Part shown: one piece after another, positions 3,546-41,491 of the stretch | Position numbering within the stretch: position 1 is the first letter of the stretch | How the letters are laid out: each line of letters opens with the position of its first letter | DNA from: Acrasis kona | Lineage: Eukaryota > Heterolobosea > Eutetramitea > Acrasida > Acrasidae | Reading direction: 5' to 3' | DNA: 42,386 bases | Assembly: GCA_026419775.2 (NCBI GenBank) | Contig: JAOPGA020000814.1 | Coordinates: forward strand, 1-42,386 | The notes under the pieces: model-generated | Told to the model about the DNA's origin: nothing | Database searches by the model: none | The model's input: the letters and a program-made list of their open reading frames with translations, nothing else | Position numbers and translations under genes: made by a program

Positions 3546-4201
3546 TTATTTGAATTTTTGCAAACAAGTCAACTAGGGACTTTACTGTAAAAAACTAAAC
3601 GTTCAGAACGTTATTATTGTAAATGATGCAGAACGAATCATCCCAATCGTCGAGCAACGTTCCCTAACAAAAGTGCTCGTCAAAGCGCTATTCAAATTAT
3701 GGCCGTGTGAACAATTACGTTAAAAATACTCTTTGGGAGTTTTTGTAGAGGATGTTGCTGACTTAGGGATTACTCTACTTGTATTAGGGGAAACCAATTT
3801 TGTTTTGGACATAAAATCTTTATTTATTAATTTTTGTAATGTATGTCCGGGTAACTTCCATATCGGTCTTCATTCTTCGGGCATCGTCAATAATAACTGG
3901 CATTCTCTCTTTGTTTCTCTTTGTCGCGCTTATGTTTTTTTTTTGATACTTGTCATGGGTAAGGAGCAGGAGCATCATGGTGAATTTGCATATCTATTCT
4001 ATTTGTTTCAATATGGCCACAATCTCTATCACGACATATCCAATTACCAAGCCATTCATTAGTTACTTAACGTGCTGGGTTCATTATCATGTGTCCCTTC
4101 GACGTCAGTTCGTGTAGTTCGTGTTATCTTACTTCCAAAACAATTTTTGAATAGCCTAAACAATTTTGGCTATGCCCAAAACAAAAATGAATTACCCTCT
4201 G
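3546..4201. other. Intergenic; 15-bp palindrome and a weak 52-codon frame
   Basis: A perfect inverted repeat AACGTTC-A-GAACGTT lies at 3598-3612, about 55 nt upstream of the divergent ankyrin-like gene start, and could be a regulatory site. On the minus strand 3978-3820 there is a 52-codon frame starting with two Met codons and ending just before an AATAAA. It could be a tiny gene or a remnant of the transposase-like gene upstream. No family is recognised. Confidence 0.35.
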
Positions 4202-5540
4202 TCAAATAGAGCAATTCCCAAGGCAGACAGTTTCATCATAAACATGAATAAAGTGCTTCTTGTCCCATTTCGAAGTAACATCGAAAATGTACTGATTTCG
4301 CTTTGATGAATAGTATAGGTGATTTGCTTGTACTCTATCCATTGGTAGTGCGGCATTTTGTTTGAAATCAAAAGAGAACACTCGAAGGAGATTATGTTCC
4401 TTAACCATTCCATTTTGTATCATTATACCAATCCGATTGTTTTCTTTTAATAGCATTTCATATGTACTACTTGTATTGCAAACTCTTTGGATAGTGAGTA
4501 GACAATCGATTTTATACCCTCTTCGGCGATGCACCGACTGCGAAAAATGTATGTTGAATTTCAATCGCTCTGATTCGTCTAGGTCCTCAACTTTTTTAAT
4601 CCCCTTGGACATCATAAGGTGTCGAATACTTGTACAGTAATTGCAAGCATCCTTGATTGGGTCTAATATCATGACATTTGGGCAAAGTTTCTTGAACTTG
4701 ACAAGGAATGTATTATACGTGCATGTTTGACTGCCATTTAGTGTTTGTTCTGCAACAAACCTATCATATACCTCTTTCAAGTTTGTGTTGGCAGGAAGTG
4801 GGAGGTCCTTGCCCTTACAGTAAGCGCATGGCCAAGGCTCAGGGTCCAACCTGTAGATGAACTGGATTAACTGCTCATTAAACTCTTCCGACTTTGTAGT
4901 TACAGGTTTCATTCCGCTTCCTCCGTGCGGAGCGGGTTGTGTAACATATTCGACAACAGAATCTGTAGCCATATTGTTGATGCGCTTCCAAACGTATTTT
5001 GAAACACGTAACAGCATGTCGTTACCAACACGCAGCCGTTTTTTAATTTTGTCTCTTGGAATCTTCCAACTTGTCATAAATTTAGGCTGTTTTTTTGAAC
5101 ATACAAGCTTATTATATGACTTGTTTGGCTTGATACTTTGAATACATCCCATAACAACAATATCACGCTGTTGTCTTGTGAGATTTTTATGAAATTCCAT
5201 AGCTGTTGGTAAGGTATCTTCAACAAAATTTGAGAGATTTTCAAGATTAACCGTATTGATTTGAAAATCANCATTAAAGGTATGTTGTACGATTTGGATT
5301 GGCTTTGGTGGTTGTATTTGAACTTCATGAATTTCGACATCTTTAACTGATTTGTTAACTGCTAATTTGATGTTCTTAATAACGATTGCTTTAAGATCTG
5401 TGGGTGAAAGCTTTTGTGATAATGGAACAATGGCCTTTCGTAACTCTTCTTGAATGACTTTAATAATGTCCTCAAACTCTCGATTGTCAGTCCTATATAA
5501 TATAGATGAGCATGATAGATAGACGAGTGTTTACTTACAT
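4202..5540 (-). CDS. Transposase-like protein, probably truncated at its C-terminus
   Basis: The frame is open from exon 2 (5492) to a TGA at 4202. A 46-nt intron (5538-5493, gtaagt...tatag) would split the start codon: AT at 5540-5539 joins G at 5492 to give MTDNREF. Internal motifs include paired Cys sites (WPCAYCKGKDLP and ACNYC) and YYSSKRNQYIFDVTS followed by HFIHVYDE. These resemble uncharacterised DDE-type transposon proteins of animals and protists that continue with a second acidic block after a '(Y/W)(D/H)E' motif (recalled family pattern). Here that block is missing and the frame breaks near 4215-4190, so a decayed copy is likely. Base 5271 is ambiguous (n). No terminal inverted repeats were identified. 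Confidence 0.6.
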
Positions 5541-5717
5541 TGAGTGCTGTGTCGTTGATTTAGTTCCCAAATAACTGGAATTGAATTATTTTTTAGTCAA
5601 CTAATTTTATTGAAGTACAAAAATAAACTAGATCACCCTTTAGGAAGTGTCCTGGTTTCTAAAATTTCTATTCAATTTTAAAAAAGTGAATTGAATAAGC
5701 TCTTACAACAACTTACA

Positions 5718-7493
5718 ATGGGAACCAAACTCAACTCTATCAATTATAGAACCCCTTCAGGCAATGCCGACCATCAACAGTTCGTCAAAAAGCTTAAAAC
5801 TTTTCAAAATAGCAACAATTATCTTCCTCAAGACTTTTTCGAACTCGAAGATCAACAATTACATCAACTTGTTGAAAAGAACCTTGAACCGAAAATAGGA
5901 ACAGACATCATTGCATTGAGATGGATCGAACTGTTATCATTATCAATTCGTCTAAGGCGGATGTTAATGAGTGACAATATAATTAAACGGTCACTGAATT
6001 TACTTATGAAGAAGAGTGTTGACTCGGAATCACAAGATCTACTACTAAAGTTCTTTGGACGCTGTTCGGTATACATAACAGATAGTTTAGACAGCTTAAC
6101 AAATCCGTTTAACAACCAAAATTACATCGATTCAATATTCAAGTGTATTGTGTCGCGAAGGAGAAACATTGAGAAGAATGCCGAGGTTGTAGCTTATGCT
6201 ATAGCCTCATTAGTCGGAACAGATGTGCCCAAGTATTTTGAAACCAGAGACGATGCAGCTGGTGTTTTCCTCGACGCCTCCGTACAAGCAGTACAACATT
6301 TTGAGCACCCTGGTTGCTGCGACATGGTCGTGGCCGTCTCATCTCGAGTTTTCCGTTTTCGATGTGAATTGACTTTAAATTATGATGAACCAGAACCCTC
6401 ATGGTGGGGCGAACTAGCTCGAAAATTAGTCAAATCAAAGTACTTTGATATTTGTTTTAACCATATGGAAGAAAACAACGACGGATCTACGCTTCTTTCA
6501 TTTAATGTTATTAATGGATTTGTTGGTATGAGTCCTGAACTTGTGGTGTCCTCAGGACTCCACAATAGAATCTTTCAATTAATAAAGAAACATAATCGAC
6601 ACAATTATGCGATTGAGAGCATTGGTAATCTGTGGCACATGTCTAATCCGTTAGTTGAACCGCATATAAGTGATGTAATGGTCAAAGGTTTAGACGAGTT
6701 GATTGGAGGAGATATTGTAAAGGCCGTGGTGCCTTACTTACAAAAACAACCTTTGAGTGGTTTTGGCTCCGAGTGGAGAGCAGTATTGAATAGTTGTCGT
6801 GTTCTGAAATCCGTCATGTATTTCCCATTGAGAAAGAACATGGATCTTGCATCATTCTTAGTGCATGCTGCTAAAAACATTCCTGATGTACTTTTTAAAA
6901 TGTGTCTTTTGTTAAAAACAATTAACTCTATCAAACTAATCAGCAATGAGCTAGTAGATGCTTCGAAATATATTTTTGCGAGTCTATCAACTTGTCGTGC
7001 TTATATTACTGATGTAGATGCGTTTACTGACTATTTAATAAACAATCAAATATTAGAATGTATAATAGATATGGCACACCTCTCAAAATCTCTAAATACC
7101 GAGATTGCTGCAGTTGATGCTTTTTGCTATTTAACGGAAATGGACCCGCTCAAGATATTTGTTTATCTGGAGCATTCAGAAGACAGATTTAAATTGTACT
7201 CTGATTTAAAACAAAGTGTTAGTAGGTATGAGGACGACGAAGAGTTCTTGAAGAAGTCTCAACAATTTAATAATAGAATAAAAAAGATGGAGGACCAATT
7301 CTATCATTGTGCTTCTTGTAGCTCAATTGAGGCCAAGTCCAGATGTTCGAGATGTCGAGGTGTAGTGTATTGTAATTCTGAATGCCAACATAACCACTGG
7401 GCAAAGCACAAAATCGATTGTAAAAATCCTGTCATGATGGATCAAGAGGCAAGGATCAAAAAGTTTGTGGAGACCTATAGATTTGATGAATGA
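5718..7493 (+). CDS. MYND zinc-finger protein with a large helical N-terminus
   Basis: Single-exon 591-aa protein; the ATG at 5718 is the first Met in frame. The C-terminus has a MYND finger: CASCSS, then RCSRCRGVVYCNSECQ, then W..HK.DC, at about residues 532-570, with all zinc ligands present. The first ~500 residues look all-helical and armadillo/HEAT-like but without a clear repeat. MYND fingers bind proline-rich peptides and are common in cytosolic or nuclear adaptors. There is no SET domain around the finger, so this is not a SMYD-type methyltransferase. It shares a short divergent promoter with the transposase-like gene. AATAAA lies near 7590. Confidence 0.85.
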   Translation: MGTKLNSINYRTPSGNADHQQFVKKLKTFQNSNNYLPQDFFELEDQQLHQLVEKNLEPKIGTDIIALRWIELLSLSIRLRRMLMSDNIIKRSLNLLMKKSVDSESQDLLLKFFGRCSVYITDSLDSLTNPFNNQNYIDSIFKCIVSRRRNIEKNAEVVAYAIASLVGTDVPKYFETRDDAAGVFLDASVQAVQHFEHPGCCDMVVAVSSRVFRFRCELTLNYDEPEPSWWGELARKLVKSKYFDICFNHMEENNDGSTLLSFNVINGFVGMSPELVVSSGLHNRIFQLIKKHNRHNYAIESIGNLWHMSNPLVEPHISDVMVKGLDELIGGDIVKAVVPYLQKQPLSGFGSEWRAVLNSCRVLKSVMYFPLRKNMDLASFLVHAAKNIPDVLFKMCLLLKTINSIKLISNELVDASKYIFASLSTCRAYITDVDAFTDYLINNQILECIIDMAHLSKSLNTEIAAVDAFCYLTEMDPLKIFVYLEHSEDRFKLYSDLKQSVSRYEDDEEFLKKSQQFNNRIKKMEDQFYHCASCSSIEAKSRCSRCRGVVYCNSECQHNHWAKHKIDCKNPVMMDQEARIKKFVETYRFDE

Positions 7494-13620: not shown

Positions 13621-14997
13621 TTATACAAGGCACAATACTGCACAAAACAAGATCAAAAACACATTTGCTCTGTTAGATTGCGAAGAGGAGGTAAAGATAC
13701 TCCACCATGGGGCTTTCGTTGTTTCTGGAGCATTGGTGGTGGTGGTTGTAGTGGTGGGGCTTGCACTTGTTGTTCCCGATCGAGTTGAAGTTGGTGATGA
13801 TGTTGTTGTTGCACTTGTTGTTCCCGATCGAGTTGTAGTTGGTGATGATGTTGTTGTTGCGCTGGTTGTGTAGTTATTTGGTCCGATGTATGTTCCTACC
13901 CAACTTCCTAACCCTGTTACAAAGTCATAATCAACCTTGCAATTATAGCGTAACGATGCTGATGGTGTTTCGGAGTAACCTTGTGTGATGTCTCTAAATT
14001 TGATGGATCCACTGTAAATGCTGGCTACGGTCAAGACAACGCCGGTTTGTGCGGCTCTTGCGGCAATGATGGGACATGAGGCCGAAGTGCCTCCCATAAG
14101 TTCCCAATTACCCTTTGTGTATACTGCAACTCCTGTCGTGGGATCTCCGACTGATGACAAGTCTGGTACTTTTCTGAAACCTGTTTTATCCAATGCTCTT
14201 ACCCTGGGATCTGTGAGTTGAATGTTTGGGGCAGAAGAGTATGATGAGACTCCTCCTCCACTTCCTGTCCAACCAGTCTCAACAATGTTGTCTGTTGATA
14301 AGTAAAGTGACGTTCCTCCAACTGCAATCACGTTTGGGCTTGATGTAGGATAATCAACACCCGGTCCGTAATCTCCGCTTGCGCAAAAGTAAGTAACATT
14401 TGGTACTTTGAAGTAAGTATTCTCGTATGTTGGACTGTCTGAATCTTCTGGGAATCCAAGGCTCATACTAACATAATCAGAGTTTTTTGCTGCATAGAGA
14501 ATGGCCTTTAGCACGTCTACAGACGATGAAGTTTCCGCTAGTACTAATAAAATCTTGGCACCTGGAGAGATACCATGGACCATTTGTACGTCAAGCGAGA
14601 TTTCTCCGATCCAGTCCTCATCGTCCGGTGCTGTTGGTATTGTACTTGAACCTGTTTGTCCTACTTTTTTAAAACAACCATTTGCTGTGGTACATGGTGG
14701 AAGACCAAACATGTTACTGTACACTGCCAACTCTTGTTCAATACTTGGTGAGTCATAGCATGCCACAATACCAACCGTCTTGCCTGACCCAGCAGCCATA
14801 CTTGTGTTATAATTGTACGCCGCTTTGAGTTCAGCAGGTGAAAAGCCACTGACCATTACCCCTCTCGCATCTGGAGCTGCCCTTGTTCTACGTGGTGGAT
14901 TCCTGTTGATTATCGCATACGATCTGGCTTTTCCTCCAGTGGATACTGCAACCGCAATTGATATTAGCAGCAACAGAAGCACTGAAAGGCTTTCCAT
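13621..14997 (-). CDS. Secreted sedolisin (S53) peptidase, likely GPI-anchored
   Basis: 458 aa from ATG 14997. A signal peptide (LLLLLISIAVAV) is followed by a short basic segment, then directly by the catalytic domain. The triad is visible: Glu132 and Asp136 in WIGEISLDV, and Ser305 in GGTSASCP. The oxyanion Asp209 is in CASGDYG. The C-terminal calcium-site pattern (DITQG ... YDFVTGLG) is also present. Sedolisins normally carry a long (~180 aa) prodomain; only about 45 residues precede the catalytic core here. After the core come Thr/Ser-rich repeats and a hydrophobic tail (NVFLILFCAVLCLV) that fits a GPI-anchor signal. The predicted role is an acidic serine-carboxyl endopeptidase at the cell surface or in the lysosome/phagosome. 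AATAAA follows the stop directly (13620-13615, minus strand). Confidence 0.88.
   Translation of the reverse strand: MESLSVLLLLLISIAVAVSTGGKARSYAIINRNPPRRTRAAPDARGVMVSGFSPAELKAAYNYNTSMAAGSGKTVGIVACYDSPSIEQELAVYSNMFGLPPCTTANGCFKKVGQTGSSTIPTAPDDEDWIGEISLDVQMVHGISPGAKILLVLAETSSSVDVLKAILYAAKNSDYVSMSLGFPEDSDSPTYENTYFKVPNVTYFCASGDYGPGVDYPTSSPNVIAVGGTSLYLSTDNIVETGWTGSGGGVSSYSSAPNIQLTDPRVRALDKTGFRKVPDLSSVGDPTTGVAVYTKGNWELMGGTSASCPIIAARAAQTGVVLTVASIYSGSIKFRDITQGYSETPSASLRYNCKVDYDFVTGLGSWVGTYIGPNNYTTSATTTSSPTTTRSGTTSATTTSSPTSTRSGTTSASPTTTTTTTNAPETTKAPWWSIFTSSSQSNRANVFLILFCAVLCLV
13763..13858 (-). repeat. 48-bp tandem repeat coding a Thr/Ser linker
   Basis: Two near-identical 48-bp units (13763-13810 and 13811-13858) plus flanking partial copies encode SGTTSATTTSSPTTTR units in the sedolisin stalk. 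Such stretches are usually O-glycosylated. Confidence 0.8.
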
Positions 14998-15215
14998 TTT
15001 CTTTTTGGTGACAATTTGATTTATGACAAACTATTTGATGCGCAAATGGAAGACGTTCGGGCAGATAAAATTGAGCCTTTGGATAAAAGAGATGAAGTGT
15101 GATGGGTGCTGAAAACAAGATTTTACAACATTATATGGCACACAATAGCCCACACCAAAGAAAGAGTAAAAAGCGTAAAAGTTTCGTTTGATAAATTAGA
15201 GTTACAATGTTTATT

Positions 15216-15788: not shown

Positions 15789-17228
15789 TTAATGCTTTTT
15801 ACTTGCTTTTGTTTTAGCTTCCCTCTTTTTAATAGCACTCCTACCAAGCTTGATGTTTCCATCAACCCCAGGCGCCCTTCTTTTTGTCAATGACTTATTA
15901 CAAGCCTTACAACTGGATGAAACAGGCTGCTCAAAAGAGCAATGTCCACAAATCATTCGGTTTGCCCAAGCCTCACCCGTCATTTCGCTGCAAGCCTCTT
16001 CGTGACATATATCACAAGGATATGCTTTACCACAACAAGGAAAACGCAACCATCGTTGAGAATGTTTATAATGTTTACACGTTCCATGTTGTGGAAGCGT
16101 GCTGCCAAGTGATATAGTAGAATTGGCAGTTTTTTTTTTGGCCTTGTTTTTTTTTGCTGCTAGAGCTTGTTGGCGTTGATGTGGAGTCAAACCTTCAGAA
16201 TCCAAATTCTCTGCAAGTATTTTGATGTGAGTTTTTTGAATTTGTGTGACTACAAGAGATAGTCCAGTATGGCACTTTTCACATTCAAAATCGTTTAAAG
16301 CACGAACCCTGACGCTACCAATGTTGGTAACATGAGAACAATCGAAGCACATTACAGCAAATTGGCAGGTTGGAAGAGTATCAAAAACACTGCAACCAGA
16401 GCATTCGATTTGAGCGAACAAATTTTGTGGTTGAATGGAGACGGACATGACGGCATGAGGATAAAAATGGACTTCTAATGGTTTTGTACAAACAGAACAA
16501 TCAAGAATAAAATCACTAGTTGGAGTTAAATTTTTCACGTCCACTGAATTTTGACAGCGAACACAATGTACAATAAGATTAAGTTCTGTGCATTCAAAGA
16601 CAGATATTCCTTTTAGATCAACACCCTCAAATAGCAAACCAATGTCATTCGGACCAGCATGGGTACTTAGGGAAGGAGGTTTCACACGCAAGCTATAAAG
16701 TGCACTATCGTCTTCCTCGCTTTCGTCTTCGTATGATTCCTCATCCTCTTCGCCTGAAGAGGATTCAGGCTCGGGTGTGTCGTTGATGAATGAAAATCTT
16801 CTTTTTGATGATCCGTCTGGATTGTCTACTATGTAGGCTTGTAGGCATTTTGGGTCATGTGTTATTAATTTGTTTGCATTTTTCTGTAGGTAATTCATTA
16901 GTGTTAGGAGTGTTGTATTTCCTTCTTTGTGATTTTTTTTGATTTGCTGCAGGAGTTGGTCTTTGATGTAGTTTTTCACTGAACTGGGAACCGATCTTCC
17001 ATTTGCCACCTCTTCTATCTCATCTACTGACGGGGCAACATCGGGATAATCTTCTGGTACAGAGAAGTGTACTTTTAATCCATCGAAATCAACATTGAGG
17101 TCCTGATCGGGTATATAATCCACTGAAAATTTAAATGGGAAAGTCGTAGATATGTTTTTGAATTTTTTAAATTTCTGCTTGATATTCACAAGCTCCTCCC
17201 TCACTGCTCTCTTCTTATCTTCTGACAT
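15789..17228 (-). CDS. CHY-type zinc-finger protein with RWD-like N-terminus
   Basis: 479 aa from ATG 17228. Residues 30-110 have an RWD-like pattern (DFDGLKVHFSVPEDYPDVAP). An acidic Ser/Glu/Asp-rich stretch follows (about 155-175). The middle has several CxxC pairs (HCVRCQ, DCSVC, ECSGC, CFDC, CEKC). Near the C-terminus is the CHY finger: GTCKHYKHSQRWLRFPCCGK, then PCDICHEE, then MICGHCSFEQ and CKACN. CHY fingers occur in RCHY1/PIRH2 and in fungal Hot13. The order RWD-like then C-terminal CHY is known from fungal and amoebal proteins. The tail is Lys/Arg-rich. A RING domain is absent, so an E3 role is not supported. Confidence 0.82.
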   Translation of the reverse strand: MSEDKKRAVREELVNIKQKFKKFKNISTTFPFKFSVDYIPDQDLNVDFDGLKVHFSVPEDYPDVAPSVDEIEEVANGRSVPSSVKNYIKDQLLQQIKKNHKEGNTTLLTLMNYLQKNANKLITHDPKCLQAYIVDNPDGSSKRRFSFINDTPEPESSSGEEDEESYEDESEEDDSALYSLRVKPPSLSTHAGPNDIGLLFEGVDLKGISVFECTELNLIVHCVRCQNSVDVKNLTPTSDFILDCSVCTKPLEVHFYPHAVMSVSIQPQNLFAQIECSGCSVFDTLPTCQFAVMCFDCSHVTNIGSVRVRALNDFECEKCHTGLSLVVTQIQKTHIKILAENLDSEGLTPHQRQQALAAKKNKAKKKTANSTISLGSTLPQHGTCKHYKHSQRWLRFPCCGKAYPCDICHEEACSEMTGEAWANRMICGHCSFEQPVSSSCKACNKSLTKRRAPGVDGNIKLGRSAIKKREAKTKASKKH

Positions 17229-17480
17229 ATGTTTGGTTTGTTAGAATCTATTTTTAACTCTGTCCACAACAAGTTGAACATAGGGGTGTCTAGTGGGTGG
17301 TTATATTAATAGAATCAAAACAAAAGTGGAGTTTAAAACCTAAACGTACAAACCCAAGTTGTGGACAGTAAAAACAAATTCAATAAAGAATACAAGTGGA
17401 AAGTGTTTATTTTGTTCAGCCTGTGATCGCTCCGAGATCTACTTCCTATATAGTGTTTAATGTTGACTTCTTATACATCG

Positions 17481-34663: not shown

Positions 34664-37442
34664 ATGAGTACCAATGACTCAGATGACGAGGATGGAATGA
34701 CAATTCTTACTGTCTACATCATGTCTGAATCTAAAAAGAAGGTGATGGTGCGTGCGGAGGACAAAGTTCGGGTAAGTCGAACACAGATTGCGGAGCAGTT
34801 AACATCCCACAGAAACTATTCGATAGCATATGCCAAAAGTTATTACTTAAACAATATCAATTCTTTGCAATTTCCGAACAACTCATCGACGACTTCGGAG
34901 CACCTATCGGTACTTTGTGTGCATATTTACTTGATTGACCTTGCAGATCGATTTTTGGACTTTTCCAATACTATCGCAGAAGAAAATTTATCTTCAAACT
35001 CAAACCTATGTATATTCAAAGCTGAAGCATGTCAAAAAACCGCGCGAGTTAAACGACCCTGTTGCAGAACACCTACTATTTAAACATGTACAACAAAACA
35101 TTATACAAGAACTGTATCCGTGCCCCGAAAGGATTGCATGCGTACTCGCCGCCATAGAGCTTCAAAGTAAATACGGAGACAACGATCCACACAAGCACAG
35201 AACAGGTTATTTAAAGTATGAATCAAATTTTAATGCTACTTTGACTCTTTTAGTAAGATTGGACTTAGCGAGTTTCTGCCCCAAACGGTGTCCAGACATG
35301 ACTATGCTTATTGGCAGGAACGCTTATTCTCCATTCACAGAAAGCTAGCTGGAACTACCCAGCGCGAGGCCATTAAAAAGTACATTGATGTAGCTCGTCA
35401 AATTCCATATTTTGGTATGACATTTTTTGAGCTAGAGGACGACGTGAAAGCTAGGTTATTGCTAGGAGTAGCTGAAGATGGTTTATTTTTATTCAACACT
35501 GCTAATTTGGTATGTCGATTATTTTATTGATTCTCACTCTATTAGAGCCTTCTCCATTGCGTAACGTTCAGGTCTCTTGTAGCTTGGACAAAGAAGGATG
35601 TTGGATTCGACATCATGTTTGAGGAAGAAGATATCGTGCAGAGCTTAACTCTTATTACATCAGATGTGAAGCGCAAAGAGATTTTGGATTTATTGGATGA
35701 GTACTACGTGCTGCTTCCTGATGATTGGAGAAACTCCATGAAGAAACCCAATAACTCCAAACCAGTTGTTTTGGATCGCCCAGTGGATTATCTTCCACCA
35801 CAAAAAAGAACTTTTATGGGTAGATTTGGAAGTAGGTTAGAGTTTTTGAAGGGATACTATATGGAATGTTGTGCTCAGTCTAAACACATTCCTTTGAGGA
35901 GTATGTGTTGTCAAATTGATGCTTGTATCGACAACGAGGTACCGTTGAATAAGCTCGATCTTTGTGAATGCAACTTGGACAATCAAGGATTAGATTTCAT
36001 CTTGAAGTCAATAGGAAAAGCCTTGGCCTTCTCGTAAGAAGTTTTTTATATTTATTAACTAAATTATAGTCCGGAAGTCATTTTTCAATGGAAGGAAAAT
36101 TTAGATTTACAAGAAATTGATTTTTCTGATAACTTTATAAACGTCGAGGAATACAGGTTCATGTAAGAATTCATTTGCCCTGACTGCTTAATTTTTTAGA
36201 TTTTCTTTCTTGGATTTCTTTCCAAAGATGAAGCACATAAATTTATCTGGTAATTTGGTTGGAAACCAGGGAGCTATTTTGTTGTCAAAGTGTATTGAGA
36301 AGCTCAAATCAATTGAATCTATTAGACTCAATAATTGTGACATTGGCAATAAAGGGTTGACTGAGCTGCTGTCATCGATAAGAGGCAGGAGTACATTTAA
36401 AGTTTTGGAGTGTGCCAAAAACCGAGTTGCTGATAAAACATTATCTTTATTAGGAAAATTATTGGACGATACGTACTTGTCCGTTTTGAACTTGAGTGGT
36501 AATAAAATAGATGCTGGGATAATAGATGCTGGGATTTTAGGGTCCATATTGAAGCCCCTGGACATATCTAAAAGAATTGAAGTTGTTGACCTTAGCGATT
36601 GTAATCTCAACACAAAAGCTGGCATACGTATTGCATTATTTCTTGAATCGAATAAAAACATTCAAGAACTCCGGATATCTGGTAATAAGTTCAATTCAGA
36701 AGTTTTTGTTAAAATTGGACTGAGTTTAAGGACCAACACAAGTCTGGTCAAACTTGACTTGTCCAACAACATGTTTGGAGATAAAATTACAGACAAACAA
36801 ATAAAAGAGGCAATTGGTTTCGTGAGTAAACCAACATCTCAACTGGAGGAATTAAACATTTCCAACTGCTGTTTTGATTATATTTTTGCTGACGAATTTG
36901 CCAAAATTTTGACAACGAATAGTAAACTCTCCTCTATCAACCTTTCCCAAAATCCAATCTCCAAGGTTGGAACGCCACCTTCATCGTGGAAAGATGCTCT
37001 AAGTGCTGGTCATATAAAAAAGTTGTGTATGTCAAGATGCGATTTAACGGGTACTGGTCTACTCAATTTTATGGTGTCCATCGCTGGTGTTCAGTTGGAT
37101 GAATTGATTTTGGATGGTTGTGAGCCGATTGGCGACATTAGAATGTTACAAGAATTCTTTGCAAATTGTCGTTCGAAATTGCTAAGTTTGAGCGATTCCA
37201 AGATAACAGATGATCTGCTAGCCATGATTGGTCCTTCTCTAGGAAAGAATAGGAATATTGAGATACTGATTCTGAATGATAACCTTCTATCAAAAGATGG
37301 ATTGGAGAGGTTAACACATTCAAAAATTAATAAAAATTTGAGTGAGCTGCACATTTTAAGAAATCCAAGGCTTGAAAAGGATGCTAAAGTTGTTGCGAAG
37401 ATATTGATGGACAAAACGTTACTAAGGAAGGTCTTGATATAA
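34664..37442 (+). CDS. FERM plus leucine-rich-repeat protein (7 exons, one frameshift)
   Basis: The exons are 34664-34771, 34813-34909, 34947-35215, 35254-35509, 35546-36033, 36070-36162 and 36200-37442, with introns of 36-41 nt. Phases fit except for one extra base in exon 3 near 35025, where RFLDFSNTIAEENL must shift into KLKHVKKPRELNDPVAEHLL. The product is about 850 aa. FERM F1 (VRKLFDSICQKLLL) is followed by F2 (ERIACVLAAIELQSKYGD and WQERLFSIHRKLAGTT) and F3 (FDIMFEEEDIVQSLTLI), covering about 10-340. Ten or more ribonuclease-inhibitor-type LRRs follow (KHINLSGNLVGNQGA, LVKLDLSNNMFGDK). A membrane-cytoskeleton linker with an actin-regulator or scaffold role is likely. AATAAA follows the stop directly (37443-37448). 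Confidence 0.82.
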
Positions 37443-37537: not shown

Positions 37538-40517
37538 ATGACGCAGCCATCTCTATTGATACCTTATGAATCGATACAAAAAAAGAAGGTTCTTGGACAA
37601 GGTGCCTTTGGTGAGGTATGTTTGTGCTCATGGACCAGAGAAGAGGAGGTTGTCGACGTTGCTGTAAAATACATGAATAATTTGACAGAAAGCATGAAGA
37701 AAGAATTCATGCTCGAGGTGGAGGTTACGAGGTAATCAACAAATTATAAAAATAAAATTAACCAATTGCCTGCATCAGCAAGTTAAAGAACGAAAACATC
37801 TGTAAAGTGTTTGGGTACTCTCAAAACGAGACTTGCTTCATGATTGTTTTGGAATATATCAATGGAGGAGATCTAAATGACATGTTCAACAAAAACTTGT
37901 ATAACCTACTATCGTGGGATAGAAAATGGAAGCTTGTGGAGCAAGTCGCTCTATCAATACATTATCTGCACACTCATGATCTTCCTATTTTACACAGAGA
38001 TATCAAAAGTCCAAACTTTTTGGTATGTTTTTTGTTTTGTAATGCTTACTTATTTTCAAGATAACCCGAGACCTCACAACGCTCAAGCTATGTGGTAAGT
38101 CAGTTGTGTGCACCTATCCTTATTTTAACAAATAGACTTCGGAATGAGTGATCTTGGTCTGAACCTTGAAAAGCAAATCCACGGAAGTACAAGATGGCTA
38201 GCGCCCGAAGTGCAATTTGGAGGGAACAAATGGAGCACAAAATCTGACGTTTTCGCTTTCGCCATGACAGTGTTTGAGATCACATCAAGCAAGCTGCCCT
38301 TTTACGAAACAGATGATCCTAATGCAGTCAGCGAACTAATCAAGCATGAGAGAGTCAGACCAGAGCTTGGTCAACAAGTCCCAGAAAAGTTCAAGACGCT
38401 AATGAGAAAATGTTGGGAGCACTCGTAAGTTTTGATTAAATACAAAATGGTTAAAAATGCAACAGAGCCGACAAAAGGCCAACAATGACTGAAGTTCTTA
38501 CTTTTGTAAATGCTGCCAAGGACAATGAAGACGCTGATTTTGAAATATCTTTTGATACCAGCGCCGCCCCAAGCAATCCACCTCTCACTGCCAGGGCCCG
38601 TAATTTAAAAGACAAGAGTAAGTTTTACATTCTCAAGCGTTTTAACTTTTGACAGGACTCTTCTTTGAGATTAGAAAAGACGACCTCATCAACTGTTGCA
38701 ACGACGATCAAATCACATACAAAACCAACCCACCAAAAGTCCCACCTCACATACTCGGAGACTACAAACTACCACAAGTACCAGACAAGGTCACCATCGT
38801 CAAACTAACAAGACAATTCTCCATCAATCCGCTGACCAGCAACAGTTACGCAACGGACATTTACCAAAGAGTGGAACTTTTATTCTTACGTTTCTTTGAC
38901 ACCGTCGGAACGACCAACAAGGTTCAACTAGAGAGCGTGGAGATCATCTTTAATGATGCATTGGAGGATCGTTTCAGAGCCAAGGAACAAATTCTACACG
39001 ATCGCGGAGAAGGCATCGAAGCGTTGAAGGACAAGTCACAATCAAAGTTAGGAAGACAGTACTTGAAGAGATTAATGATGAGCGACAATCTCATCACAAT
39101 GAGGAACAGCAATGGTTTGAGTGCTTGGCATGGAGCCAATCGTGAAAAATTAGAATCCATCATGTGGTACGGACTATTGAATTTGAGCAGCAGAGATCCA
39201 GGTTACTATGGAAAAGCCATTTACATGACGCAGGAACCAAGTTACGGAAGTTACTACACATCTCAAAAGGCCAAGGAAGAAGGTGAATTTGAACTCTTGT
39301 TGTGCTGGGCGACCATCGGAAGGCCTTACGCGGTTACGAAAGTAGAGTTGGGAAGACCTCAAGAAGAAGGTTATGATTCACATTATGTTGTTGTAAGGCA
39401 TAGACAGCCTGTGAGAGATGTTTTTGTTCATGAAGCTGATTTTAAAAAATTAGAAAATAACGGGGAAGCTCATTACCCGATTCGTAACTTTGAAGAAGAA
39501 AAGGTTCAAGGTGACGAGATTGCAATCTTTGATTCCGATCAGGCCTTGCCTCGTTTTATTGTTTCTTATAAAGTTTTACAAAATAATCTTAAAAGTACTG
39601 CGTCCAATCGCGATTCTAATGCTTACAACACCGTCCAAGCTTGTGTGAATGCTTTGAACTTGCACATTGATAACAAGGAAGAAGTTTGTACGGCCTCACT
39701 TGCTTTGAGCGAATTGTTGAGTGCCAGGACGAAACCCGGAGAGGAAGTAAGTTTCCGACAGGCCATGAAGATTGAACAGTTCGCTGTCGAGACTAGAAGC
39801 AGCGACGGATTGATTAGCTTAATAAAAGTTATGCAAAAACATTCTCTTGTGGAAGAGTTGATTGCGTCCGGAGTTCATGTATTGAGAGTTTGTGCTCAGG
39901 AAGATATTCCAAGTCGTGAAATTATACAAAAGAATAAAGGTATCGAGATTATCATTGGAAGCATGTTGCGCTTCTTTGATCGTGAAAGCATGTTGATAAC
40001 TGCGAATGCTGCCTTGTGGCATTTGTCAACTAATAAAGTAGAGCGTGTTAATATTGTGAAACAAGGCGGTATAGAGGCCGTCATTAACTCTGTTAAACGT
40101 TTTGGTGATAATTTAGAGTTGTTGACCGAAGCCATGGGTGTCATGTGGAAGTTGAGTGTGGACGAAGAAACACTTGACTCCTTCCAAAGGCATGATGGCG
40201 TGAGGTACATCGTCGATAGTATGAGGAAATTCAATGATTGGCATGATTTGTTAGTTGCAGGGAACGGTGCATTGTGGAATTTGGCAGTGGCGCCTGATGA
40301 CAAGGCATATGATGGTGTCCATAAAGACTTGGTGGAGAGTTTAAAAAGGTTGAAGGCAATCGAGGTTGTTCAAGATTCGCTACGAAGGTACAGTGATGTT
40401 CAGGAATATGCATTATTGCACAAGCAGGCGAGCGGAGCTTTGGAGGCCATGCATGGAGCAAAGAAGAAATCAATCTTGGGGAGGATCGCTAGTGCTTATA
40501 AGATGCGAAATAAATGA
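37538..40517 (+). CDS. TKL kinase - PARP catalytic domain - armadillo repeat fusion (6 exons)
   Basis: The exons are 37538-37731, 37779-38022, 38061-38094, 38136-38424, 38466-38617 and 38656-40517. The five introns are 38-47 nt and all phases close, giving 924 aa. Kinase, residues 8-290: glycine loop GQGAFGEV, VAVK (Lys44), HRDIKSPNFL, DFGMSD, WLAPEV and a complete C-lobe ending MRKCWEHS ... RPTMTEVL, a TKL signature. PARP-like fold, about 340-605: WHGA (His at about 462), GYYGKAIYM with its Tyr, and the closing strand GDEIAIFDSDQALPRFIV. Armadillo-like repeats, about 650-910: DSVKRFGDNLELLTEAMGVM-type units (ALWHLS, GVMWKLS, GALWNLA). It likely couples phosphorylation and ADP-ribosylation. 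AATAAA is formed by the last two codons before TGA. Confidence 0.88.
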
Positions 40518-40622
40518 ATGTAATTTTTCGTCAATTAAATTTCAATCTTTTTGTCTTGAGAATGGGAAAAGTACAACAACATTTCAGAAATAAATCATTT
40601 TTTAACTAATTAAAATTTACAT

Positions 40623-41150
40623 TTATTGTGGCTTGCCATATGGAACATCTGGTTGCAATTGTTGGGCCGGCTCTCTGTTATAAATATAAACACCCGGCGG
40701 TTCAAATGTCGGAGATTGCATAGGAGCTGATGCGGCTGGTATGTATGGATTGAAATCGTTTGGTGGCGCATTGAAGCCAGGTGCGGGTGGTTTATATTCA
40801 GGATACATTGTTTCTGCCATTCCACTACTGTTATTGTATTCTGGATAAACGAATGTGGGTTGTGTTTCTGTTGTCACAGTTATCACTTCGATGTCCCTAG
40901 ATGCACGGACAGCAGCTCTGTAAACATAATATCTTTGTATTGTTGCTAGTAGAAGCGAAAACGTAGTTATTAGCAAGAACACTAACACCCATAAGGGCCA
41001 TGCTATATACGATGTATCCGAACCATCTATTTTCACAGTTATCCATACAACATATAATACAATAAATGCAACTGTGGCTGTTATCGATAGAGCTAATATT
41101 ATTGCTGTTCCTATCAAAGACCTCTCTATCCTCTTAGTTGATGGTTGCAT
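40623..41150 (-). CDS. Two-TM protein with Pro/Tyr-rich cytosolic tail
   Basis: 175 aa. Two TM helices (IGTAIILALSITATVAFIVL and WPLWVLVFLLITTFSLLLAT) are separated by a short loop (WITVKIDGSDTSYIA). A tail of about 95 residues is rich in Pro, Tyr and Asn (YPEYKPPAPGF, PPGVYIYNREP) and could serve as an adaptor-binding segment. No family is recognised. The stop TAA overlaps AATAAA (40627-40622). It converges with the kinase-PARP gene. Confidence 0.7.
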   Translation of the reverse strand: MQPSTKRIERSLIGTAIILALSITATVAFIVLYVVWITVKIDGSDTSYIAWPLWVLVFLLITTFSLLLATIQRYYVYRAAVRASRDIEVITVTTETQPTFVYPEYNNSSGMAETMYPEYKPPAPGFNAPPNDFNPYIPAASAPMQSPTFEPPGVYIYNREPAQQLQPDVPYGKPQ

Positions 41151-41491
41151 GTCTGATCGTTTTGATTTTCAAAAAAGGATAACGGATCAATAAAAATAGA
41201 ATTTATTTTGGAACTTCGTGAAATACGTTATCTTCACTTACAAAGAAACTCTCCACACAATTATCGTTGACTTCATTCAAGACACTATGCAAACTAGCTA
41301 GTTAATCTTCCGAATGTCGATCAAACGTGTCCAACTGGTACGGTTTATCCATTCATTGCCGTTTCTCCCGTTGTTGAAATCTTCGTTGGCACTTCTTGAA
41401 CTTGGCAAGTAGCCGTTTGGTGAGTATTGCAATTAATCGTCTATGAAATAATGGAATACAGTACTCATGCATTCATTGGGACAAAACATCT
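41151..41491. other. Intergenic with weak coding traces
   Basis: Plus-strand fragments NFVKYVIFTYKETLHTIIVD (about 41210-41300) and TCPTGTVYPFIAVSPVVEIF (about 41315-41395) look coding. They lie in different frames without a convincing intron or start, so they may be remnants. Confidence 0.3.

Follow-up and report, generated by a model that had tools for sequence, protein, structure and literature searches.

Does a single gene of the heterolobosean amoeba Acrasis kona join a protein kinase, a PARP-type ADP-ribosyltransferase and armadillo (ARM) repeats, is this arrangement peculiar to its host, and what could it be for? Phosphorylation and ADP-ribosylation are usually linked through separate enzymes, and a natural fusion in distant protists and one bacterium would be a direct system in which to test if one chemistry gates the other. 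The locus lies on contig C394 of the 37.35-Mb assembly, and the window analysed here (42,386 nucleotides) is the whole contig. Its predicted product (P0001) is identical to the NCBI entry “MAPKKK protein [Acrasis kona]”, a name which conceals the ADP-ribosyltransferase domain.

Kinase, PARP and ARM parts in one gene

The gene lies on the forward strand and contains five introns of 38-47 nt, all GT-AG, with a GC content of 24-34% versus 42% in the coding sequence. Exon 1 (37538-37731) carries the start codon, the Gly-rich loop, Lys44 (37667-37669) and the alpha-C Glu60 and is followed, after intron 1 (37732-37778, 47 nt), by exon 2 (37779-38022) with the HRD motif (37993-38001), Lys141 and Asn144. 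Intron 2 (38023-38060, 38 nt) precedes the 34-nt exon 3 (38061-38094), the last base of which is the first base of the DFG Asp158 codon interrupted by intron 3 (38095-38135, 41 nt). The DFG motif, GSTRWLAPE and the C-lobe are found in exon 4 (38136-38424) and, beyond intron 4 (38425-38465, 41 nt), the kinase end and a poorly conserved linker in exon 5 (38466-38617). Intron 5 (38618-38655, 38 nt) separates this linker from the PARP part, so that all introns fall into the kinase and linker section, and exon 6 (38656-40517, stop codon 40515-40517) encodes the entire PARP and ARM parts without a break. Together, the six exons yield 924 residues, which bears out the single reading frame across five introns claimed in the preliminary description.

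The genome paper states that roughly half of the A. kona genes bear introns (9-95 bp) and that gene models were based on protein and transcriptome evidence with hand curation (PMC11589745). Models were termed “reliable” there upon full RNA-seq coverage and/or presence of a Pfam domain; since either suffices, RNA support for this particular gene is not guaranteed (PMC11589745).

Two adjacent genes, one for a kinase and one for a PARP-ARM protein, could have been wrongly joined. With intron 5 retained, the frame would run into a stop at 38652, ending a kinase-only product after 11 further residues, and a partial copy on contig C991 indicates that the region was rearranged or misassembled at least once. 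However, the first Met encoded in exon 6 is residue 445, which already lies within the PARP domain, the close relative P0002 holds every part in a protein of 933 aa (2,992 bases), and three further relatives (P0004, P0005 and the bacterial L052) each combine kinase and PARP in a single frame. Based on these reading frames and the joined parts of the relatives, the two-gene reading, already disfavoured, was rejected as highly improbable, and the sequence places kinase, PARP and ARM in one gene whose parts remain joined in P0002. A short kinase-only isoform through intron 5 retention is possible.

The copy on C991 corresponds to a 1,472-base stretch (39867-41338) spanning the ARM end of the kinase-PARP gene and the next gene, with 99.6% identity to positions 2781-4252 of L021 (C991:1-6000) and differing flanks. 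It could be a partially duplicated segment, an allele that has been rearranged or a join made in assembly; the arrangement on C394 is supported, as P0002 spans the break point. Upstream, the frame of an LRR gene (36192-37442, forward strand) ends 95 bases before the kinase-PARP start and has its own stop codon, marking it as a separate gene. Convergent with the kinase-PARP gene is a 181-aa open frame (40623-41168, reverse strand) with a hydrophobic segment and a tail rich in proline, for which Pfam returned nothing at E <= 1e-4. Elsewhere on the contig, frames encode ankyrin repeats (1398-2759, reverse), a MYND finger (5682-7490, forward), a subtilase (13624-15030, reverse) and RWD plus CHY zinc finger domains (15792-17240, reverse).

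The kinase, PARP and armadillo domains

As the preliminary description had suggested, Pfam profile searches were run with PF07714 and PF00644. The kinase domain (37574-38502 including introns; residues 13-266, exons 1-5) reached 173.1 bits with PF07714 (cut-off 23.1, E 8.9e-51), and the catalytic residues of the K/E/HRD/DFG set are all present (Lys44, Glu60, Asp139, Lys141, Asn144, Asp158), confirming the complete kinase with Lys44, HRD, DFG and APE. Comparison with solved structures returned 2,639 matches, the best 60 of which are TKL and tyrosine kinases by name, among them TAK1, CTR1, ROCO4, MLT/ZAK, B-RAF and RIPK2. Judged by its sequence, the N-terminal part of P0001 is a kinase with a complete set of catalytic residues, most likely of the TKL group (TAK1/MLK/RAF-like); “MAPKKK” is a database label, and phosphorylation of a MAPKK is putative.

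The PARP catalytic domain (38862-39572; residues 374-610) scored 45.2 bits with PF00644, above the curated cut-off of 26.7. A single-sequence search of solved structures with this part found no PARP; in the profile search, the best PARP match had an E-value of 0.0024, and 21 of the 22 weak matches were PARPs, counting ZAP, which we take to be PARP13. The structure model of the domain had a mean pLDDT of 50.6, and one of its 361 Foldseek matches had an E-value <= 0.001; all 50 matches listed of the 361 obtained with this low-confidence model were PARP catalytic domains. At E <= 0.1, Pfam listed none of the PARP regulatory, WWE, macro and ankyrin domains in P0001. These results point to a diverged PARP domain.

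His463 (39129-39131), Tyr494 (39222-39224) and Glu592 (39516-39518) are invariant in all six aligned rows, P0001 included, and so are several residues flanking the His and Tyr. His and Tyr of the H-Y-x signature, as originally described, were upheld, and the PARP fold is probable. The third triad residue, which had been sought in the stretch EIAIFDSD, is most likely Glu592, aligning with the presumably catalytic Glu of PARP4 “DDEFVVY” (3.9 bits for the stretch by itself), and the H-Y-E triad of P0001 is then most likely intact. Comparison of the family with the PARP1-like domains of A. kona using hhalign gave 70.9% probability over 74 columns and ended before this Glu. Such a triad permits, but does not prove, the formation of ADP-ribose chains by P0001, which may just as well transfer ADP-ribose in single units.

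The divergence of the domain in Pfam and structure searches, the weak match over the Glu and the early end of the hhalign comparison would also fit a kinase scaffold with a catalytically dead PARP that only binds NAD+ or ADP-ribose. We consider this quite improbable, since a dead domain rarely keeps all of the presumed triad and its flanking residues across six of six rows.

The ARM part (39672-40481) forms a solenoid of helical repeats, spanning residues of about 644-913 by structure matches. The full-length AF2 prediction is usable for this part only, being confident at about 751-880 and weak before residue 690; the kinase and PARP parts have no confident model. P0001 stays below the Pfam Arm/ARM_LRRK2 cut-off (24.0 versus 26.2 bits), and P0002 exceeds that of ARM_LRRK2 with 35.6 bits. 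Predicted fold and matches to known ARM solenoids identify the C-terminal part as an ARM solenoid, in agreement with the ARM-like repeats noted before, sub-threshold in Pfam as they are in P0001.

Relatives in protists and bacteria

The protein searches required shared 5-residue words and lengths near that of the query; absence elsewhere, for example from Naegleria, is therefore not proof. The first search, with the PARP region (902 candidates), yielded P0001 itself and P0002, the second (2,294 candidates) P0003 and P0004, and the third (7,996 scored) at least P0001, P0002, P0003 and P0005. P0002 shows the order kinase, PARP and ARM with complete kinase residues. P0003 and P0004 are both too short to judge an ARM part: P0003 comprises PARP only and starts within one codon of the A. 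kona intron 5 site, which may reflect a start at an exon border, and P0004 shows a kinase end (PF07714 positions 227-258 of 258, E 0.19, weak as short; BLASTP to the P0001 kinase E 0.006) followed by PARP. P0005 is the 627-aa EukProt sequence Phypoly_transcript_04368, whose prefix we take to stand for Physarum polycephalum, now filed by NCBI under Badhamia polycephala (Amoebozoa). It contains a kinase (E 4.5e-47) followed by a PARP domain (E 6.1e-15; 103/233 residues identical to P0001, triad kept) and ends 29 residues past the latter, without an ARM part. Its kinase keeps the Lys and DFG, but HRD reads HKG, so that the catalytic Asp is lost.

Across these relatives, PARP is the best conserved domain of P0001 (84% to P0002; 44-48% to P0003, P0004 and P0005) and the linker the least conserved part (13/35). 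The ARM part was seen only in Acrasis and its close relative P0002.

In a collection of 84,980 species genomes, a scan with two short patterns gave 67 pattern matches and two loci at E <= 1e-3. The first, L052 (Proteobacteria MAG LL7.bin68), is an 853-aa frame (164-2725) with a kinase (E 2.4e-55; HRDLKSHN and DFG) ahead of a PARP domain (E 2.5e-9) that keeps the triad. Its C-terminal region (residues about 650-853) has no Pfam name and recurs with 36-51% identity in four other genomes of 385 from the class, one of these matches holding a stop. This recurrence speaks for a bacterial source of L052 rather than a stray contig from an amoeba. The one genome with PF00644 among 8 of the L052 family, and among 42 of the order, was the L052 genome itself. 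The second locus, L053 from an uncultured Francisellaceae MAG, is a 1,129-aa frame (3972-7361) with a PARP of the P0001 type, TPR and a sub-threshold NACHT, and with no kinase among its 10 Pfam rows. A giant-virus origin was rejected after two viral-contig scans (queries A1 and A9; 84 and 47 stretches matching the pattern) revealed no relatives; as each scan used two short patterns, this is weak evidence of absence.

The preliminary description knew of no well-described kinase-PARP fusion of this order and suggested a search for it in other protists. Among the papers listed in literature searches, none describes such a fusion by title or opening of the abstract, and in a survey of over 1,900 PARPs in 249 species the text, as distinct from figures and supplements, uses “kinase” twice (MEK kinases; a reference) and never for a PARP-fused domain (PMC4245714). 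The same holds for the text, again apart from figures and supplements, of a further article, with both mentions in references (PMC2964712), and the accessible text of the Physarum genome paper has no match for parp (PMC4758236). The order itself is not unique: P0002 has all three parts, and the kinase-PARP order is kept in P0004, P0005 and L052. Overall, the observation of a kinase (probably TKL)-PARP-ARM order in one gene was confirmed, and the uniqueness of the kinase-PARP order has to be abandoned.

Within the A. kona assembly, at least 11 PF00644 matches occur on nine contigs, and a kinase match is present on at least four of the nine (C394, C995, C467 and C625). On C995, C467 and C625 the kinase and PARP matches are 22-30 kb apart, and further A. 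kona kinase-PARP genes were rejected on these lists, which are lower bounds. On five contigs (C602, C995, C625, C693 and C467), the long frames surrounding PARP matches were inspected visually, without profiles.

A 12-row PARP tree, including five of the eight other A. kona PARP loci (C632, C467 and C625 left out) and subject to a long-branch warning for C693 and L053 among others, split the five eukaryote-type rows (97/97) from five other A. kona and two bacterial PARP domains. For the kinases, we used loci with frames >= 200 aa and matches over 220 residues, leaving out C330 (90.6 bits, stop within the match). In the resulting 17-row tree (14 A. kona kinases, P0001, P0002 and P0005), support for grouping the three fusion kinases is 54/24; once the bacterial row is included, two changes are required to account for the four fusions, and a single clade of the eukaryote-type kinases P0001, P0002 and P0005 is neither excluded (p-AU 0.33) nor demonstrated. 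Of the long-frame rows, the A. kona fusion kinase gives the Phypoly kinase its best score, by a narrow margin (96.6 versus 87.6 bits for L028). The A. kona fusion kinase itself scores higher with its own paralogues L014 and L015 (104.5 and 103.4) than with the Phypoly kinase (98.3), which disfavours close kinship of the two. The kinase trees do not discriminate between one fusion and several, and bit scores point both ways; from the shared order and the PARP grouping, a fusion common to the eukaryote-type rows is likely.

Possible coupling of two activities and comparison with known systems

We infer kinase and transferase activity, gating through the linker and partner binding by the ARM part. 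With somewhat less than even confidence, we propose that P0001 is one 924-residue signalling protein in which ARM positions partners and the kinase gates or directs PARP output. The ARM part would bind and position partners, and the kinase, responding to an upstream signal, would phosphorylate either such a partner or P0001 itself, in its variable linker or PARP part, and thereby gate or direct ADP-ribosylation by the PARP domain, the putative conserved output of the family. As the least conserved part, the linker would suit a regulatory hinge; it may also merely lack constraint.

Since HRD reads HKG in P0005, phosphorylation cannot be needed in every member, nor can dual catalysis be a family rule. 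This loss of the catalytic Asp is the chief argument that a dual-enzyme mechanism is not universal, and it speaks for PARP as the output that all members share. ADP-ribosylation could even be the sole essential output, with the kinase as an ATP-binding or phospho-sensing switch and phosphorylation dispensable; the Phypoly relative, which retains Lys, DFG and the full PARP triad, and the strong conservation of PARP agree with this. As P0001 and P0002 have the full set of kinase residues and the bacterial L052 retains HRDLKSHN and DFG, we regard such a role as rather unlikely. A broader proposal, that a previously undescribed bifunctional kinase-ADP-ribosyltransferase family of Discoba, Amoebozoa and associated bacteria was anciently inherited or transferred, that phosphorylation directly switches ADP-ribosylation within one polypeptide and that ARM was added in Acrasis, is a doubtful but serious candidate.

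Defence and cell-death pathways involve TKL kinases such as TAK1 and RIPK2. The presence of both among the best 60 of the 2,639 solved kinase matches and the scattered occurrence in protists and one bacterium, resembling that of conflict genes, would be consistent with a self-contained defence or cell-death enzyme, in which infection or stress triggers the kinase and PARP activity then modifies targets or uses up NAD+. That the A. kona genome paper mentions neither PARP nor ADP-ribosylation in its main text speaks against this improbable role; armadillo and tkl have no matches there either (PMC11589745). The recurrence of the kinase-PARP order in other lineages suggests a family, so far little known, whose members may unite two kinds of signalling chemistry in a single polypeptide.

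P0005 resembles P0001 in its kinase-PARP order and PARP triad and differs in lacking ARM and the HRD Asp. L052 likewise has a TKL-type kinase ahead of PARP and the triad, with its own C-terminal region in place of ARM and identities of 28% (kinase) and 26% (PARP). TKL kinases such as TAK1/MAP3K7, MLT/ZAK and B-RAF are among the closest solved kinases to P0001, which has their full catalytic set; we know of no TKL kinase with a PARP domain. With the PARP/ARTD family (PF00644; PARP4, PARP12, tankyrase), P0001 shares the catalytic domain by Pfam and the likely H-Y-E triad, differing in its low similarity, a long stretch ahead of the last strand and the fusion to kinase and ARM repeats. With ARM-repeat proteins such as beta-catenin and importin alpha (11-18% identity), it has the fold alone in common.
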